DNA of 64,000 nucleotides from NCBI RefSeq assembly GCF_036227325.1, contig NZ_CP109467.1, forward strand, positions 1,922,001-1,986,000, given 5' to 3'. The notes beneath the pieces were generated by a model. It was not told the DNA's origin and searched no databases. It saw only the letters and a list, made by a program, of their open reading frames with translations. Shown in pieces: positions 3,812 through 61,659 of the stretch. Source of the DNA: Streptomyces sp. NBC_01465 (lineage in GTDB: Bacteria > Actinomycetota > Actinomycetes > Streptomycetales > Streptomycetaceae). Position 1 is the first letter of the stretch; each line of letters opens with the position of its first letter. Made by a program: the position numbers and the translations under genes.

Positions 3812-4414
3812 GTGTTCCGAAGCCGCGCCAATGCCAATGAAGAGAAGGCCGCCACCAGCAAGGTGACGTCGGACCTCTCCCAGCAGACCCGTGACCCGCA
3901 GGCTCCCAAGGGCCGCCCCACTCCCAAGCGGAGCGAGGCGCAGACCCAGCGGCGCCGTGCCGTCACGCCGACGACCGACCGCAAGGAGGCCGCCAAGCGC
4001 CAGCGTGAGGTCCGCAGGACGGATCTCGCCAAGCAGCGCGAGGCCCTCGCCAGCGGCGACGAGCGTTACCTGCCCGCCCGCGACAAGGGCAAGGTCCGGC
4101 GCTTCGCCCGCGACTTCGTCGACTCGCGCTTCTGCATCGCGGAGTTCTTCCTCCCGATGGCAGTGATCATCCTGGTCCTGTCGATCGTCCAGGTTCCGGG
4201 CATCCAGAACATCGCGCTGCTGCTCTGGCTCTTCGTGATCGTCCTGATCGTCGTCGACTCGGTCGGCATCTGGTTCCGGCTGAAGAAGCAGATCAACCTG
4301 CGCTTCCCGGACGAGCCCAAGCGCGGCGCCGTCGCGTACGGACTGATGCGCACCCTCCAGATGCGCCGGATGCGGCTCCCGAAGCCGCAGGTCAAGCGCG
4401 GAGAGCGACCCTGA
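3812..4414 (+). CDS. DUF3043 membrane protein
   Basis: A 200-residue actinobacterial DUF3043 protein. The N-terminal half is highly charged, rich in Arg, Lys and Gln (VFRSRANANEEKAATSK ... QTQRRRAVTPTTDRKEAAKRQREVRR). Then come RDFVDSRFCIAEFFLPMAV and two membrane helices (about 110-155), ending in a basic tail. I chose the GTG at 3812, which gives the family-typical start [M]FRSR; a TTG at 3803 would add three residues. Divergent from pspA across 255 bases that must hold both promoters. Function unknown. The next gene follows by 17 bases. Confidence 0.85.
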   Translation: MFRSRANANEEKAATSKVTSDLSQQTRDPQAPKGRPTPKRSEAQTQRRRAVTPTTDRKEAAKRQREVRRTDLAKQREALASGDERYLPARDKGKVRRFARDFVDSRFCIAEFFLPMAVIILVLSIVQVPGIQNIALLLWLFVIVLIVVDSVGIWFRLKKQINLRFPDEPKRGAVAYGLMRTLQMRRMRLPKPQVKRGERP

Positions 4415-4431
4415 CCAGCAGCACGGAGCCC

Positions 4432-5214
4432 ATGGGCTTCGAAGGTGCGTCGTCCGTCTGGCTGAAGGGCCTGGGCGGGCTGCGCAACACCGTGCGCCAG
4501 GAGCTCGTCGCCCGTCAGGTCGACGAGCAGATAGCCGTACGTTTCCCGGTCGGCCAGCGGCTGCGGATCCTCGACGTCGGCATGGGCCAGGGCACCCAGG
4601 CCCTGCGCCTCGCCCGCGCCGGGCACTCGGTCACCGGCCTGGAGTCGGACGCCGAGATGCTCAAGGCGGCCCGTGACGCACTGGTCACCGAGCCCGAGGG
4701 CATCCGCGCACGGGTGCGCTTCCTGGAGGGCGACGGCCGGGAGACCGGCGTCCACTTCCTGCCGGGAAGTTTTGACGTGGTGCTCTGTCATGGAGTGCTG
4801 ATGTACGTGACCGATCCGGACGCCATGCTCGCGGGCCTGGCCCGGATGCTGGCCCCCGGCGGTCTGCTCTCGCTGCTCGTACGGAACGCGGACGCGCTCG
4901 CCATGCGCCCCGGGCTCGCCGGGGACTTCTCCGCCGCGCTGGCCGCGTTCGACACCGTCTCGTACACCAACCGGCTCGGCCTCGACGTCCGCGCCGACCG
5001 GCTGGAGGCGCTGACGGCGACCCTCGCGGGGATCGCCGCCCCGCTGCACACCTGGTACGGCGTGCGGGTCTTCACCGACCTCGTCGGCAACGACGAGGAG
5101 CTGCCGTCCGCCCAGGAGCTCGACCGGATCCTGACGGCCGAGGACCGGGCCGGGCGCACGGATCCGTACCGCCGGGTGGCCGCGCTTCTGCATCTCTGCG
5201 GCGTGCGGGGCTGA
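4432..5214 (+). CDS. Class I SAM-dependent methyltransferase
   Basis: 260 residues with a Rossmann methyltransferase core. Motif I is RILDVGMGQGTQALRLARAG (about 47-66). An acidic ribose-binding position follows at LESDAEML, then FDVVLCHGVLMYVTDPDAML and GGLLSLLVRNADALA. The VGMGQG motif and the FDVVLCHGVL segment resemble the CmoA/SmtA group, but the substrate cannot be assigned. It is probably co-transcribed with the DUF3043 gene (17-base gap). It ends 79 bases before the HtrA-like protease. Confidence 0.85.
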   Translation: MGFEGASSVWLKGLGGLRNTVRQELVARQVDEQIAVRFPVGQRLRILDVGMGQGTQALRLARAGHSVTGLESDAEMLKAARDALVTEPEGIRARVRFLEGDGRETGVHFLPGSFDVVLCHGVLMYVTDPDAMLAGLARMLAPGGLLSLLVRNADALAMRPGLAGDFSAALAAFDTVSYTNRLGLDVRADRLEALTATLAGIAAPLHTWYGVRVFTDLVGNDEELPSAQELDRILTAEDRAGRTDPYRRVAALLHLCGVRG

Positions 5215-57127: not shown

Positions 57128-57517
57128 ATGGGTCTGTGCCTGTACGCGCTCGACGGCGACGCCACGGGCCCAGATGCCTGCTGGTCCTACGGCTCCTTCG
57201 CAGAGTTCCGTCGGCGTCTGGCCGAGGCCGAGGGATTCGTGCTCGGCGACATGTGGGGATTTGGCGGTGACCGGCAGTGGGAGGAGATTTCTACCTCTCT
57301 GGAGCCGTTCCTGAACCACCCCGATGACCACAGCAAGGACATCGCTCCCGAGGACTGCGCCGCGATCCTGCCTCGGCTGGAGAACATTCTTGAGCAGTGG
57401 GTGTCCATGGCCGACTCTGAAGAGGACCTGGCGGACCGGCACATCGAGGATGCTCGGAACCTCGTGACGGTACTGCGAATCTGTGTCAGCAAGGGGGTCG
57501 TTCTTGCCTTCGGCTGA
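57128..57517 (+). CDS. Small acidic hypothetical protein
   Basis: 129 residues, MGLCLYALDGDATGPDACWSYGSFAEFRRRLAEAEG ... LLAFG-type end (KGVVLAFG). Acidic, soluble and helical. GGAGGAGGAAC precedes the ATG at 57128. Similar short Streptomyces proteins are known in pairs with immunity-like genes, but I recognise no domain. The 328-base gap to the left holds only the right repeat and the old glnA terminator. It converges on the aminoglycoside-phosphotransferase-like gene. Confidence 0.65.
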   Translation: MGLCLYALDGDATGPDACWSYGSFAEFRRRLAEAEGFVLGDMWGFGGDRQWEEISTSLEPFLNHPDDHSKDIAPEDCAAILPRLENILEQWVSMADSEEDLADRHIEDARNLVTVLRICVSKGVVLAFG

Positions 57518-57628
57518 CCGTTGGACCTCCGGATGCCACTCGGAGCTTCTCGACTACGGAAGGCCGGTCAACTACCTGAAGGGCGACTACTGTTGACGAG
57601 TAGGCGCCCTGGCCTGTCGGGGCTCCCG

Positions 57629-58432
57629 TCACTTGTTGCGATGACCGTCCCACTTTCGAGCTCCGGACTGAAGCTTGCCCGTCCAGGCATCCGGTGCGCG
57701 TCCAGCGATCTCGGTCCACAGTCTGGCGCTCGCTGCCGCGAATGCATTCACGCCCTCGACCGGCGCTTCATCCCATGCGGCGATCTTCGCAGCCTGAGCC
57801 TCGGCTTCTTCAGGTGTGTGGCCGGCGGCGATCAGCCAGATGATCCAGTGCGCAGGGTCGAGCCAGGCTGCTCCGCAGGTGGCCCAGCCCCAGTCGACGA
57901 GGTGTGCTCGGTCGTCCGCGACGAGGACGTTGTGGTTGTTCCAATCAGTGTGGAGCAGCGCATCCCCCTTGAACGCCTCTGCGTCCGCTGGGTTGTCGAC
58001 GTATCCGGACAGACGCTGCTCGGCTTGGCGAAGTTCGATGTCGGGGCACGGGACATCGCCGAGCCGGCGCATGGCCTCAATGACCTTGGGGAGGTCACGA
58101 GAGCCTCGTGAGTAGTTGGCGTGGCGGCCGTCGATGGCTTCGAAGCCGAGGATGTTCCAGCCATCAGCGATGACGTGGAAGAGCAAGCGTGGGGCTAGCG
58201 GCGTGACATACGGATTGATGTCTGCCTCGCGCTGCTGCGTCCAGACCCAACGATGGTCCGTTCGCAGTCCTTTGAGGAACGTGGTGCCACTGTCGGTGTA
58301 TGCGCGTGCGGAGAGGGAGCTGTTGAGGCCGGTGCTGATGTTCTCGATCTTCAGGATCTCTCCGATCTCGGCCTCGATGGCTGTGCGGACTTCGGAGGGG
58401 AGATCGTCGAAGGCGATGGGGGCTGCGGGCAT
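57629..58432 (-). CDS. Aminoglycoside-phosphotransferase-like protein in the RiPP locus
   Basis: 267 residues of the APH/choline-kinase fold. A likely ATP-binding Lys in TFLKGLRTDHRWVW, the catalytic loop LLHTDWNNHNVLVAD (HxDxxxxN type) and a metal-binding LVDWGWAT in place of DFG. It sits downstream of a radical SAM gene and a 44-residue precursor-like gene, separated by 78 bases and a hairpin. In that context it may phosphorylate or protect against the mature peptide. True antibiotic kinase function is equally possible. Confidence 0.85.
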   Translation of the reverse strand: MPAAPIAFDDLPSEVRTAIEAEIGEILKIENISTGLNSSLSARAYTDSGTTFLKGLRTDHRWVWTQQREADINPYVTPLAPRLLFHVIADGWNILGFEAIDGRHANYSRGSRDLPKVIEAMRRLGDVPCPDIELRQAEQRLSGYVDNPADAEAFKGDALLHTDWNNHNVLVADDRAHLVDWGWATCGAAWLDPAHWIIWLIAAGHTPEEAEAQAAKIAAWDEAPVEGVNAFAAASARLWTEIAGRAPDAWTGKLQSGARKWDGHRNK

Positions 58433-58464
58433 AGCGGTCAGGCTTCCAGATGCACGTGGCGACG

Positions 58465-58498
58465 GGGGCTTCCGGCGCGATGTGCCGCCGGAAGCCCC
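58465..58498 (-). terminator. Hairpin between precursor and phosphotransferase-like gene
   Basis: GGGGCTTCCGGCG pairs with CGCCGGAAGCCCC, a 13-bp stem with an 8-base loop. On the reverse strand it follows the precursor stop codon by 12 bases. Partial termination here would keep precursor transcript levels above those of the next gene, a common RiPP arrangement. Confidence 0.7.
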
Positions 58499-58510
58499 TG
58501 AGTTTGACGA

Positions 58511-58645
58511 TTAGTTGTAGGGGTTGTCGTCCCCGCAGCCGGAGGTTGTGGCTGTGGTGAAGGCGTCTACGTCCTCGATGAGGACGATCTCCTCATCGGT
58601 CTCGGACGGGCGGATGGGGGTGATCTCGATTGCTACTGCGGTCAT
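58511..58645 (-). CDS. Candidate RiPP precursor peptide (44 aa)
   Basis: A 44-residue gene too short for ordinary gene calling. The leader-like part is acidic (MTAVAIEITPIRPSETDEEI, then VLIEDVDAF). The C-terminus reads TTATTSGCGDDNPYN and carries the only Cys. AAGGAG lies eight bases before the ATG, an excellent ribosome-binding site inside the end of the radical SAM gene. It starts three bases after that gene's stop. Length, acidic leader, short Gly/Thr/Ser-rich tail with one Cys and an aromatic residue, and a radical SAM partner fit a RiPP substrate. The modification is not predicted; a Cys thioether or Tyr-based crosslink are possibilities. Confidence 0.75.
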   Translation of the reverse strand: MTAVAIEITPIRPSETDEEIVLIEDVDAFTTATTSGCGDDNPYN

Positions 58646-58648
58646 GGT

Positions 58649-59758
58649 TCAGCTCCTTGGTGTCGCGTGCTGGCAGTACCTGTCCAGTGGTGCCTTCGCC
58701 TCCTGGTAGACCTTGGCCAGCGGTCGGCATACCCGACAGGTGCCGGACAGCTGACAGCCGGTGCAGCCACCGGTGCGAAGCATCAGGGAGTCGGCGATGC
58801 CGCCGAGGCGGCTCAGGCCCTCGACTCCCGTGGTCATGAGGGGGATCGCATTGTCGCGGCCGACCTTGCAGATGGAGGCCATGCCGTGCGGGTCGACGTG
58901 GAAGAAGGTGTGGCCGGCGTTGCAGCCGTTGAAGGGTTCACGGTCGATGAGGTGGTCCGGGGCCTGAGAGGCGAGGGTCTCTGCTCCGCCGTAGATGGTC
59001 GGCGACATGTGGGTGTACTCGCGGTACGGCAGGCCGTATCGGTCGGCGAAAGCGCGCATCTGGTCCGCTTCATGGGCATTGTGCCGCGTGATGATCAGGG
59101 CCAGGTCCAGGGGTAGCCCGGCAGCGTGCGCAGCCTCCAGTCCCTTGAGGAACATGCGGAATGCACCCCGGCGGCGGGTCAGCCCGTCGTAGGACTCGGC
59201 GGTGGCCCCGTACAAGCTGAGCGTGATCCGGTTCGGCCGACGGCGCGTGAGTAGTGCAAGGTTCTTCGGTGCGGCGAGGCGGGATCCGTTGGTGAGGATC
59301 TCGACCATGAGGCCCAGCTCGTACGCCAGTTGGTACGTCTCTGGGAACAGCTTGTCGATCATCGGCTCGCCTCCCGTCAGCTGGAGCCAGAGAACACCGG
59401 CGTCCCTGATGGTGTGGAGAAGACGTTCGCGCTCGGGCCAGTCGAGGCCGGCGAACTGCTTGAGTCCCAGATAGCAGTGCTCGCAGTCGTAATTGCAGCC
59501 GAGGTTCAGTTCGTACGAAGCGCGTCCATAGCCGTACGGAGACCGGGTGCGCACAAGGACGATCTCGCGGAGTTCCCTGCCGCTCATCTCCAGGCCCCAT
59601 GCGTGTCGGGCCACATCCGTCAGCCAGGCAGGCGCTGCCGAGGTGGTCTGCGCACGCAGTTCTTCGTACCGGAGGGTCGGCAGACGCGCCGCCTTGGGGC
59701 TTCCCGGGCGTACAAGGAGGTGGTTGTCGAGGTACGGGGCGGCAATCAGCTCGTGCAT
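58649..59758 (-). CDS. Radical SAM/SPASM-like peptide-modifying enzyme
   Basis: 369 residues. Cluster motif CNYDCEHC (C88, C92, C95), then LQLTGGEPMIDKLFPETYQLA (GGE motif) and ILTNGSRL. The C-terminal Cys-rich region GCNAGHTFFHVDPHGMASICKVG and GGCTGCQLSGTCRVCRPL binds auxiliary clusters as in SPASM domains. An N-terminal 80-residue part ahead of the core might bind a leader peptide. The ATG at 59758 follows GGGGGAGACCAC and overlaps the upstream HATPase gene by 13 bases. The precursor-like peptide begins three bases after it. Substrate inferred from context. Confidence 0.92.
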   Translation of the reverse strand: MHELIAAPYLDNHLLVRPGSPKAARLPTLRYEELRAQTTSAAPAWLTDVARHAWGLEMSGRELREIVLVRTRSPYGYGRASYELNLGCNYDCEHCYLGLKQFAGLDWPERERLLHTIRDAGVLWLQLTGGEPMIDKLFPETYQLAYELGLMVEILTNGSRLAAPKNLALLTRRRPNRITLSLYGATAESYDGLTRRRGAFRMFLKGLEAAHAAGLPLDLALIITRHNAHEADQMRAFADRYGLPYREYTHMSPTIYGGAETLASQAPDHLIDREPFNGCNAGHTFFHVDPHGMASICKVGRDNAIPLMTTGVEGLSRLGGIADSLMLRTGGCTGCQLSGTCRVCRPLAKVYQEAKAPLDRYCQHATPRS

Positions 59759-60198
59759 GTGGTCTCCCCCTTGGGACTGTCGACGACGAGGCGGGCCCAT
59801 ACGGTCTTGCCGATCGGATTCCGGTCGTGGTGGCCGGTCTCCTCGGCGAGTGCCGTGACGAGGAGGAGACCGCGCCCGCCTTCGTCATCTTCTCGGGCCT
59901 CGACGAGTCGGGGTGGTGTGCGGTTGGCGTCCGACACCTCCACGAGGCAGTGCGAACCGTCGGCGGTAAGCCGGACTTCGAAGCGGTGTCCGCGTCTGCC
60001 GCCGTGCTCCACGGCATTGGCGGACAGTTCCCCGCAGACGAGCACCACCTTGTCGATGTCGTCCTGGCCGTATCCCCAGACGGTGAGCGTCTTGGCTACG
60101 AGGCTGCGGACGAGCGGGACGCACTTCCGTACTGAGCTGAACTGCATCTGCCACCGTTGGGCAGCGGCTTGTGGGTCGTGCGTGGTCATCGCGTGCAT
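59746..60198 (-). CDS. HATPase-domain protein (anti-sigma-factor-kinase-like)
   Basis: 150 residues. A small GHKL ATPase: N box CGELSANAVEHGG, G1 box VEVSDANRTPP and G2 box GGRGLLLVTALAEETG. Such stand-alone HATPases are common in Streptomyces next to HTH/TPR regulators and may act as RsbW-type kinases. The ATG at 60198 (MHAMTTHDPQ) follows GAGGGGACGCG. A start further upstream at 60240 would encode an unlikely His/Arg-rich tail. First gene of the RiPP-type operon and overlaps the radical SAM gene. Confidence 0.88.
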   Translation of the reverse strand: MHAMTTHDPQAAAQRWQMQFSSVRKCVPLVRSLVAKTLTVWGYGQDDIDKVVLVCGELSANAVEHGGRRGHRFEVRLTADGSHCLVEVSDANRTPPRLVEAREDDEGGRGLLLVTALAEETGHHDRNPIGKTVWARLVVDSPKGETTCTS

Positions 60199-60273
60199 CG
60201 CGTCCCCTCGTCGCGGGCGGGCTGTGGGATACGAGTGCACCGCTACGGGTGGTCACGGGATCAGGCCATCGTG

Positions 60274-60292
60274 ATTACCCAACGTGGGTAAT
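60274..60292. promoter_or_regulatory. Operator-like 8-3-8 perfect inverted repeat in the divergent RiPP promoter
   Basis: ATTACCCAACGTGGGTAAT is a perfect inverted repeat of 8-base arms around ACG. It lies between the divergent HATPase/radical SAM operon and the HTH/TPR regulator. Its right half (GGGTAAT) overlaps TAATAT, a plausible -10 for the regulator, 55 bases before its start codon. This is what an autoregulatory site of that regulator would look like. Confidence 0.6.
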
Positions 60293-60348
60293 ATTTCTGG
60301 AAGTTGGTATCGAGCTGTTCCGCCCGCACGGGTGAGTGAGGGGGACGG

Positions 60349-61659
60349 GTGACACGCCCAGAGGATCACCGGGCCCTCCCGCCCGAGTTGCTGGCCAGTG
60401 CGGAATGGCGGGAGGCCTGTCGCAGCAGGGACTTCGCCCGCGTGTTCCGGCTGGTCAAGATCAAGGCCGGGATCTACCCCTCTCGAATCGCCGCGCTGTG
60501 CGGTATGACGCCGAGTCGGGTGGGCGAGATCATGGCCGGGCGGCGCGCCTTGGCCCACATTGACGTGATCGAACGGGTCGCCGATGGCCTGCGTATCCCC
60601 GGCGCCATGCTCGGTCTCGCGCACCGGCCCTGGGAGATTCCTGTTCCGGCCCGCACCGAGGAAGGGCTGCCCGAGCCCGTCCCGCCCGTATCGGAACAGT
60701 CCCAACACACGGACCCCGCCAAAGATTTGGACAGTTTGCTTGCGCTGGTCGACGCTCCTGTCACCCGCTCCACTCTCACGGCCCTGCACTCCTCGGTCGA
60801 GGACTACTGGCGGCGTGACAACTCGCACGGCGGTGCGACCCTACGGCCCGCTGTCGTCGGCCATCTGCGCTACGTCGGCCAACTCCTCGACTCCGCCGAG
60901 AGCGGCTTACGACACGATCTCCAAGCGATCGCGGCCGAGTTGGCGCGCCTCTCTGGCTGGGCCTATTTCGACGCCCGTCAGTACAGCACCGCCCGCACCT
61001 ACTTCACCCAGGCGCTCAAGCTCTCCCACGGGCACGGCGACCGCCTGTTCATGGCCAACGTACTGTCCTGCATGAGCCTGCTGGCCACCTACGACGGCAA
61101 CCCGAACGACGCCGTCACCCTGGCCTGCCGCGCCCAGGACGCGGCCCGCGGCGCGGGTGATCAGCCCCTCGTCATGTCGATGCTGCACCTGCGCGAAGCG
61201 TTTGCCCACGCCGTCCTCCGCGACGCACGCTCCTGCCATCAGGCGGTGGACCGGTCTCGCGACCAGTACGAACGCTCACGCGGTCGTGAGGCCGAAGCAC
61301 CAAGCTGGGTGCGCTACTTCGACGAGACCAAGCTCCTCGTTGACACCGGCATTGCGTACGCTCGCCTCGGCGAAGCAGCCCGTGCCGAGCCCCTCATCGC
61401 CGAGGGCCTGCGCCGGGAGAAGGCCGACCAGCAGCGCGGCCGGGCTTTTCACGCGTACTGGCTGGCCAGCACCCAACTCCAGCAAGGCAAGCTCAACCAG
61501 GCGTGCACCAGTGCCGAACTCGCACTGAACTTGACCACGGCCATCGACTCCCCCCGAGTGAGCGGCCACGTACAGGAACTGCATCGCAGAATGCTGCCGT
61601 ACGCCGGCGAAGCCCCTGTTCTCGCCTTCGAGCAGCGCATGCGCGACTCCCTCGGCTGA
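60349..61659 (+). CDS. XRE-type HTH/TPR transcriptional regulator
   Basis: 436 residues. An XRE-like HTH (FRLVKIKAGIYPSRIAALCGMTPSRVGEIMAGRRALAHIDVIERVADGLRIPGAMLGLAHR) at about 30-90. A Pro/Glu-rich linker is followed by about seven TPR-like repeats (LARLSGWAYFDARQYSTARTYFTQALKLSHGHGD and others). GTG at 60349 with GAGGGGGACGG upstream. It diverges from the HATPase-radical SAM-peptide operon and probably binds the inverted repeat at 60274. A role in ligand- or peptide-responsive control of that operon is inferred. Confidence 0.88.
   Translation: MTRPEDHRALPPELLASAEWREACRSRDFARVFRLVKIKAGIYPSRIAALCGMTPSRVGEIMAGRRALAHIDVIERVADGLRIPGAMLGLAHRPWEIPVPARTEEGLPEPVPPVSEQSQHTDPAKDLDSLLALVDAPVTRSTLTALHSSVEDYWRRDNSHGGATLRPAVVGHLRYVGQLLDSAESGLRHDLQAIAAELARLSGWAYFDARQYSTARTYFTQALKLSHGHGDRLFMANVLSCMSLLATYDGNPNDAVTLACRAQDAARGAGDQPLVMSMLHLREAFAHAVLRDARSCHQAVDRSRDQYERSRGREAEAPSWVRYFDETKLLVDTGIAYARLGEAARAEPLIAEGLRREKADQQRGRAFHAYWLASTQLQQGKLNQACTSAELALNLTTAIDSPRVSGHVQELHRRMLPYAGEAPVLAFEQRMRDSLG

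Follow-up and report, generated by a model that had tools for sequence, protein, structure and literature searches.

Genes of the locus

Streptomyces sp. NBC_01465 carries, in the 64,000 nucleotides of contig NZ_CP109467.1 analysed here (positions 1,922,001 to 1,986,000 of the forward strand; this whole stretch is referred to as the window), a minus-strand gene group encoding a radical S-adenosylmethionine (SAM) enzyme, a peptide of 44 residues and a small-molecule kinase. An initial annotation made from the DNA alone had proposed a locus for a ribosomally synthesized and post-translationally modified peptide (RiPP), and the kinase-like, peptide, radical SAM and HATPase open reading frames (ORFs) that it listed were all found at the places given, on the minus strand. 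The results presented below indicate that the locus is quite probably a dedicated three-gene RiPP cassette, consisting of the radical SAM enzyme, the precursor and either a kinase or a GNAT acetyltransferase. The cassette most likely represents an undescribed radical SAM RiPP family, in which the enzyme very probably modifies the short peptide. Its features in the window are the following:

58649..59758, minus strand: radical SAM/SPASM maturase of 369 amino acids, with a region resembling a RiPP recognition element (RRE) at about residues 1-70, a radical SAM core with CX3CX2C and a SPASM-type C-terminus
58511..58645, minus strand: precursor peptide of 44 amino acids, with an acidic N-terminal half and a C-terminal core
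58514..58540, minus strand: core GCGDDNPYN, residues 36-44 of the precursor, one-Cys class
58653..58658, minus strand: Shine-Dalgarno-like AAGGAG of the precursor gene, read from the sequence, immediately ahead of the radical SAM stop codon
57629..58432, minus strand: small-molecule kinase of 267 amino acids with aminoglycoside phosphotransferase (APH) fold; catalytic residues K54, E69, H161-T-D163, N168 and D180 are present

On the minus strand the HATPase gene is followed by the genes for the radical SAM enzyme, the 44-residue peptide and the kinase. The ATG of the peptide gene lies 3 nucleotides past the TGA of the radical SAM gene, as had been noted before, with AAGGAG 7 nucleotides ahead of this ATG, and 78 nucleotides separate the peptide stop from the kinase start.

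Conservation of the precursor peptide

The enzyme was searched in close relatives, in a collection holding one genome per species, which gave 61 loci, and in a further set of 199 related genomes. Together with the genome of the strain itself, the close-relative scan and the 199-genome search yielded 84 loci with a readable enzyme C-terminus, seven loci with a cut enzyme having been dropped beforehand. A short ORF bearing the tail was present directly after the enzyme gene in 83 of the 84 loci, in 82 of them by script and in L034, where the tail reads SDSQPY, by eye. At the remaining locus (L037) a frame begins over the end of the enzyme gene, holds GGCGDDNPYR and runs on to the contig end. Thus, the placement of the precursor after the enzyme, which the initial annotation had pointed out, is general, and the conserved short ORF that it expected beside homologous enzymes is there. 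Four loci inspected later (L095, L108, L111 and L112) also carry the peptide. The 82 peptides found by script correspond to 81 distinct ones, since L025 and L067 share identical enzymes and peptides; L067 comes from a same-genus genome, and its enzyme is that of Streptomyces boncukensis (L025).

When the 6188 short ORFs of the loci were scanned with a tight tail pattern, all 55 matches fell in the peptides, that of L034 alone being off the script's list. In the close clade of the window (seven sequences), the ratio of nonsynonymous to synonymous polymorphism (pN/pS) was 0.32 over the last 26 codons, versus 0.59 and 2.6 in the shifted frames of the same codons and 0.71 in codons 2-12, the last value being a weaker control than the others. 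High-GC DNA is rich in short ORFs, and one of them could by chance have come to lie after a radical SAM gene with an unrelated role. However, the conservation at 83 of 84 loci, the lack of any other match among the short ORFs and the low pN/pS rule out this explanation, whose probability we consider negligible. These results indicate that a precursor with leader and core stands beside an enzyme of modifying type and is conserved jointly with it, as is characteristic of a RiPP locus.

A profile search with the peptide returned 763 clusters at E<=10. The best 120 of the 763, which are ranked by score and biased to the consensus and were therefore not used for frequencies, contain no Pfam domain, and their names, where given, are only 'hypothetical' or 'uncharacterized' protein. 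The cassette is widespread in actinomycetes, a group heavily mined for natural products, and yet the peptide has no specific name among these 120 clusters.

Two classes of core

The 81 distinct peptides comprise 27 with one Cys and 54 with two Cys in the core, so that Cys is present in every scored core; together with Pro it makes up the invariant residues. The one-Cys core reads [GR]-C-[GN]-[DNE]-D-N-P-Y, with Cys, the second Asp, Asn, Pro and Tyr in 27/27 and one extra C-terminal residue in 26/27. Typically, the two-Cys core is C-x-C-x-x-[GS]-D-D-x-P-[YFHN], with both Cys and the Pro invariant, the second Asp in 53 and the first in 51 of the 54 sequences. Its Pro is followed by Y (38), F (6), H (5) or N (5) and preceded by N (33), Q (18), A (2) or V (1). 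Of the Cys, Tyr and Asn whose conservation the initial annotation had suggested testing, the Cys holds throughout and the Tyr and Asn hold in the one-Cys class, but in the two-Cys class Tyr is kept in just 38/54 and Asn in 33/54. Mean pairwise identity was 0.38 in the leader versus 0.91 in the core for the one-Cys class, and 0.33 versus 0.73 for the two-Cys class.

In a tree built from 75 enzymes, the core class needs three changes (at least two), compared with about 22 when the labels are shuffled; such shuffles ask solely whether the class clusters, and near-copies favour clustering. Therefore, the core follows the enzyme, and the class has switched more than once.

The radical SAM enzyme

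In an alignment of 47 relatives, the CX3CX2C motif (C88, C92, C95) and seven auxiliary cysteines (C279, C297, C332, C335, C341, C344 and C362) are kept without exception, which is the cysteine complement of a radical SAM/SPASM maturase and confirms the SPASM-like Cys motifs read earlier. The best structural alignments of the enzyme model are those with the RiPP maturases SkfB and SuiB. They start at residues 1-3 and include the N-terminal domain of the model, which has three strands and three helices and is RRE-like; few rows of the fold comparison cover this domain. A search of PDB sequences with the enzyme gave four matches to the radical SAM core.

No NCBIfam model reaches its cut-off for the enzyme, and no curated family of NCBIfam or Pfam does so for the peptide. 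The best NCBIfam match, the mycofactocin maturase MftC (TIGR03962), scores 70 bits versus a cut-off of 265, and PqqE (TIGR02109) 53.7 versus 381.35. The sactipeptide maturases StsB (60.3 versus 625 bits) and AlbA (27.8 versus 850 bits) were rejected likewise, and a viperin (pVip) match of 50.6 bits is confined to the radical SAM core (residues 82-230). In three-residue cyclophane peptides (FxsB-like), the core aromatic residue has two further residues after it. This class was discarded, as here at most one residue follows the conserved aromatic residue, and H or N takes its place in 10 of the 54 two-Cys cores. Taken together, the maturase-like model and the lack of an NCBIfam or Pfam family above cut-off for the peptide uphold the radical SAM RiPP assignment of the initial annotation.

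The third gene: kinase or GNAT

A kinase of the window type, a GNAT acetyltransferase or both lie downstream of the peptide on the same strand in all 82 loci scored by script. Queries for both were drawn from the same loci, and self-hits were removed. The distance from the peptide stop to the first aligned base of the kinase or GNAT gene is at most 157 nucleotides in 81 loci and 781 nucleotides in L062. The type of partner goes with the core: a kinase accompanies all one-Cys cores (27/27), all DQP cores (18/18) and the three DAP/DVP cores, and the two-Cys DNP cores are found with GNAT (20), with both (7) or with kinase (7). Here, kinase only and GNAT only refer to the DNA covered; since 30 of the 82 rows have less than 1800 nucleotides after the peptide, a more distant second partner could be missed and the class with both may be undercounted.

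In an alignment of 31 rows, residues K54, E69, H161, N168 and D180 of the kinase are invariant and D163 is kept in at least 90%. Its AlphaFold model (pLDDT, the per-residue confidence score, 96.0) matches homoserine kinase, choline kinase, corramycin phosphotransferase and APHs best, tied or nearly so. The description as an aminoglycoside-phosphotransferase-like protein applies at the level of fold and active site. Neither Pfam nor NCBIfam gave a match at E<=0.01, and the PDB sequences gave one, with an E value of 0.97. The GNAT was identified by Pfam PF00583 in one representative (29.3 bits versus a cut-off of 20.7) and by an alignment of 15 sequences. On a Streptomyces plasmid (L112, 8804-9847), a gene for an S66-family peptidase stands after the GNAT gene. 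In microcin C systems, S66 peptidases and acetyltransferases are both parts of immunity.

Kinase and GNAT relatives apart from the enzyme

Kinase matches (E<=1e-15) were obtained in 64 of the 199 genomes, compared with 30 genomes for the enzyme (E<=1e-40, the own genome included; hand count). Stretches in which no full enzyme had turned up next to the kinase or GNAT were picked by hand, 16 among the 89 kinase places listed and 3 among the 15 GNAT places listed; the 16 kinase stretches were judged by eye and with tblastn. In L114 (5058-7258), an ATP-grasp ribosomal peptide maturase (376.9 bits, cut-off 350) and a grasp-type methyltransferase (352.6 bits, under its cut-off of 380) occupy the place of most of the radical SAM gene, of which a C-terminal piece is left together with the kinase. 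L117 has kept the peptide tail GCNDDNPYR and the kinase, and the enzyme is gone.

Other stretches hold different partners. Radical SAM/SPASM proteins distinct from the cassette enzyme, with C-terminal tails rich in Cys, Pro and Asp, are encoded on the minus strand in L127 (5286-6476), L128 (5475-6788) and L129 (2849-4138), each gene being directly followed by a kinase relative about 40% identical to that of the window; the tails may be built-in substrates. In L118 (5374-5838, minus strand), L119 (4341-4808, plus strand) and L130 (5758-6228, minus strand), the gene directly upstream of the kinase relative encodes a protein of 154-156 amino acids which ends in a Cys-rich tail, such as NCSQCHNGCHNDPPPDPKK, and gives no Pfam or NCBIfam match at the limits used. 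Half of the stand-alone kinase stretches (8/16) show neither a remnant of enzyme or peptide nor a Cys-rich partner. The three GNAT stretches contain no enzyme match, and one of them (L126) carries a GNAT with 83% identity to one from a cassette. Kinase and GNAT genes kept without the enzyme suit a role in self-protection, and the other Cys-rich partners of kinase relatives suit one in maturation.

Proposed pathway and alternative explanations

We propose that the RRE-like domain at the N-terminus of the radical SAM enzyme would bind the precursor leader, whereupon the enzyme, with its SAM cluster and SPASM domain, would carry out a radical modification of the near-fixed C-terminal core (C)xC..DDxP(Y). 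The downstream kinase (in the window) or GNAT would add a phosphoryl or acetyl group to the product, as self-protection or as tailoring, which appear about equally likely to us. Leader removal and export would depend on enzymes encoded elsewhere. What the data show is which genes stand together, how well they are conserved, that core and enzyme co-vary and which folds are predicted; the chemical steps, the binding of the leader and any activity of the product are inferred. As to the radical step, a thioether between the conserved Cys and a neighbouring Asp is the most economical guess because Cys is present in every core and Asp is nearby; we give it somewhat less than an even chance, other radical crosslinks being considered as well.

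Several observations weigh against this scheme. Neither Asp is strictly invariant: the second gives way to N in L026 and to S in L034, and the first can be N, S or E, so that a strict Cys-Asp link is disfavoured. The Pfam scan of the enzyme detected no RRE or PqqD domain, and at least one fifth of the rows of the fold comparison span only residues 73-337, with the N-terminal domain barely covered. No protease or transporter was recognised in the neighbour families other than F9 and F11 that are present in at least 4 of 62 loci, as called with a simple ORF caller. Finally, kinase relatives occur without the enzyme, and the kinase is therefore not exclusive to the cassette.

Among the 54 scored two-Cys cores, that of L026 (GDNNPY) is the only one with Asn at the second Asp position. 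In the same operon, about 15 nucleotides upstream of its radical SAM gene, lies a gene for a methyltransferase of the FxLD lanthipeptide system (L026, 3553-5001; TIGR04364, 501.9 bits versus a cut-off of 320) that resembles isoaspartate methyltransferases. This pairing, a single case, hints at Asp chemistry. Related ORFs occur in L013 and L017; a simple script found no FxLD-type precursor in L013, L017 or L026, and the FxLD methyltransferase system had no match among the nine window proteins scanned with Pfam and NCBIfam.

The nature of the product could be different. Cut from the C-terminus of the peptide, it might be a conserved small molecule that the kinase or GNAT finishes, with a role in redox chemistry, metal binding or signalling comparable to that of pyrroloquinoline quinone or mycofactocin, and not an antibiotic. 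A core that is nearly fixed while the leader drifts, the opposite of what diversifying antibiotics show, speaks for such a molecule, as do the lack of a recognised exporter or protease of its own in the recurrent neighbour families and the mycofactocin maturase as best NCBIfam model of the enzyme, far under cut-off as it is (70 versus 265 bits). However, the distribution is patchy (30 of 199 genomes at E<=1e-40 and 6 of 396 genomes of the phylum at E<=1e-70), no partner oxidoreductase was recognised among the annotated recurrent neighbour families, and 26 of 27 one-Cys cores have an extra C-terminal residue, and we consider this explanation unlikely. We regard it as more improbable still, by a wide margin, that the peptide serves as a small partner protein, with a regulatory or structural role, of an enzyme acting on something else. 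Its C-terminal Cys and Asp could bind a metal, but the RRE-like fold, the conserved core behind a variable N-terminal half and the core class tracking the enzyme tree are traits of an enzyme and its substrate.

A serious contender, at somewhat less than even probability, concerns the third gene: rather than confer resistance, the kinase or GNAT may take part in maturation and act on the peptide ahead of the radical step or following it, for instance at the core Tyr, at Ser/Thr or at the newly formed N-terminus. This would agree with its position after the peptide gene in 82/82 loci, with the co-variation of partner type and core sequence, with the Tyr invariant in the 27 one-Cys cores, all of them paired with a kinase, and with the kinase relatives that follow other genes with Cys-rich tails (L127-L129; L118, L119 and L130). 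Nevertheless, no Ser or Thr is conserved in the one-Cys cores, and the persistence of the kinase or GNAT at places that lack the enzyme or keep just a remnant of it (such as L114, L117 and L126) fits immunity better. Coming back to the three-gene RiPP cassette, we tentatively extend it, with rather more doubt than confidence, to a new class of actinomycete radical SAM RiPPs in which the near-invariant core would give a small conserved product, phosphorylated or acetylated by interchangeable partners. The kinase lineage would also serve unrelated systems with Cys-rich tails and so mark a wider hidden group of peptides.

Comparison with known systems

SkfB and SuiB are radical SAM/SPASM RiPP maturases with an N-terminal RRE, and the enzyme model aligns best with them. 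They are only 17% (SkfB) and 13% (SuiB) identical to the enzyme, their precursors differ, and the order found here, with the precursor gene after the enzyme gene and then the kinase or GNAT gene, sets the cassette apart. MftC and PqqE share with it the radical SAM core, through which the NCBIfam matches arise, and a short peptide with a fixed C-terminus; in addition to the scores far under cut-off, no partner genes of their pathways were recognised among the annotated recurrent neighbours.

PapB is reported to make thioethers in CX3D motifs and to accept other spacings (n = 0-6; PMC9413430). The cores resemble ranthipeptides (freyrasin, PapB, Cys-X3-Asp thioethers) in that an Asp stands at X3 in two-Cys cores and at X1/X2 in one-Cys cores. 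In contrast to freyrasin with its six motifs, there is one short motif at the extreme C-terminus, followed by xP(Y); the comparison with PapB is by description.

For the kinase, the corramycin phosphotransferase is reported to inactivate a peptide antibiotic (PMC10996006). Fold and catalytic residues relate the window kinase to this type of self-resistance (corramycin ComG, amicoumacin AmiN, APHs). However, identities are 9-17% in the alignments listed, tied with homoserine and choline kinases, and the window gene is tied to a peptide cassette. Systems for class V lanthipeptides and thioamitides are reported to combine a PF01636 phosphotransferase with a HopA1 protein (PMC7794033), and to that extent both have a kinase resembling APHs within a RiPP locus of Streptomyces. 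Here, however, the annotated neighbour families contain no HopA1-like gene, a radical SAM enzyme is present instead, and the window kinase misses Pfam PF01636 at E<=0.01.

A search of the PubMed Central literature, which leaves most subscription papers, bioRxiv and supplements outside, found no report of the locus among the papers listed by gene content or by motif, those retrieved with the motif being unrelated by title. As far as these sources go, the kind of system (radical SAM RiPP) is already known, and the core, the gene order and the kinase or GNAT partner are undescribed. The cassette is small, with three genes; the swap of kinase and GNAT, tied to the core sequence, provides a way into the target of modification and into self-protection, and the kinase relatives after other Cys-rich tails are a new bait for further peptide systems.

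Distribution and neighbouring genes

The cassette is found in many soil actinomycetes and is widespread though patchy. In the genome of the strain (9.1 Mb, a single contig), the enzyme has a single full match, besides which there is a weak partial one of 32%. A protein search with the enzyme gave eight plasmid records with 43-58% identity; a search of plasmids for near-identity gave none.

For counts of neighbour families, the 61 loci were compared together with the window, making 62. Two genes next to the cassette are:

59746..60240, minus strand: HATPase_c_2 protein (Pfam PF13581, 59.7 bits), outside the conserved cassette
60349..61659, plus strand: divergent NsdA-family regulator with helix-turn-helix and tetratricopeptide-repeat regions (NCBIfam NF053720, 312 bits versus a cut-off of 75)

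Rfam gave no match at gathering scores between 56500 and 62500, and a sigma-70 scan of 57400-60500 detected no promoter; the same interval contains one terminator-like site, with 1.2 expected. A plus-strand ORF at 58524-58709 (family F10, 4/62), antisense to the precursor gene and its surroundings, was taken as a shadow. The NsdA-family regulator (family F4, 16/62), transcribed away from the cassette, is probably a local regulator. The end of the HATPase gene overlaps the start of the radical SAM gene by 13 nucleotides. The operon proposed initially had included the HATPase; its radical SAM and peptide genes are indeed conserved together, with a kinase or GNAT gene as third, but the HATPase has matches at just 14 of 61 loci, and it was therefore dropped from the core cassette as a local neighbour. 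In Streptomyces beijiangensis (L006, approximately 4400-5060), the ORF caller gave a single radical SAM frame of 541 amino acids; the HATPase there lies in a different frame with its own stop, so that the extension is an upstream open frame and not a fusion.

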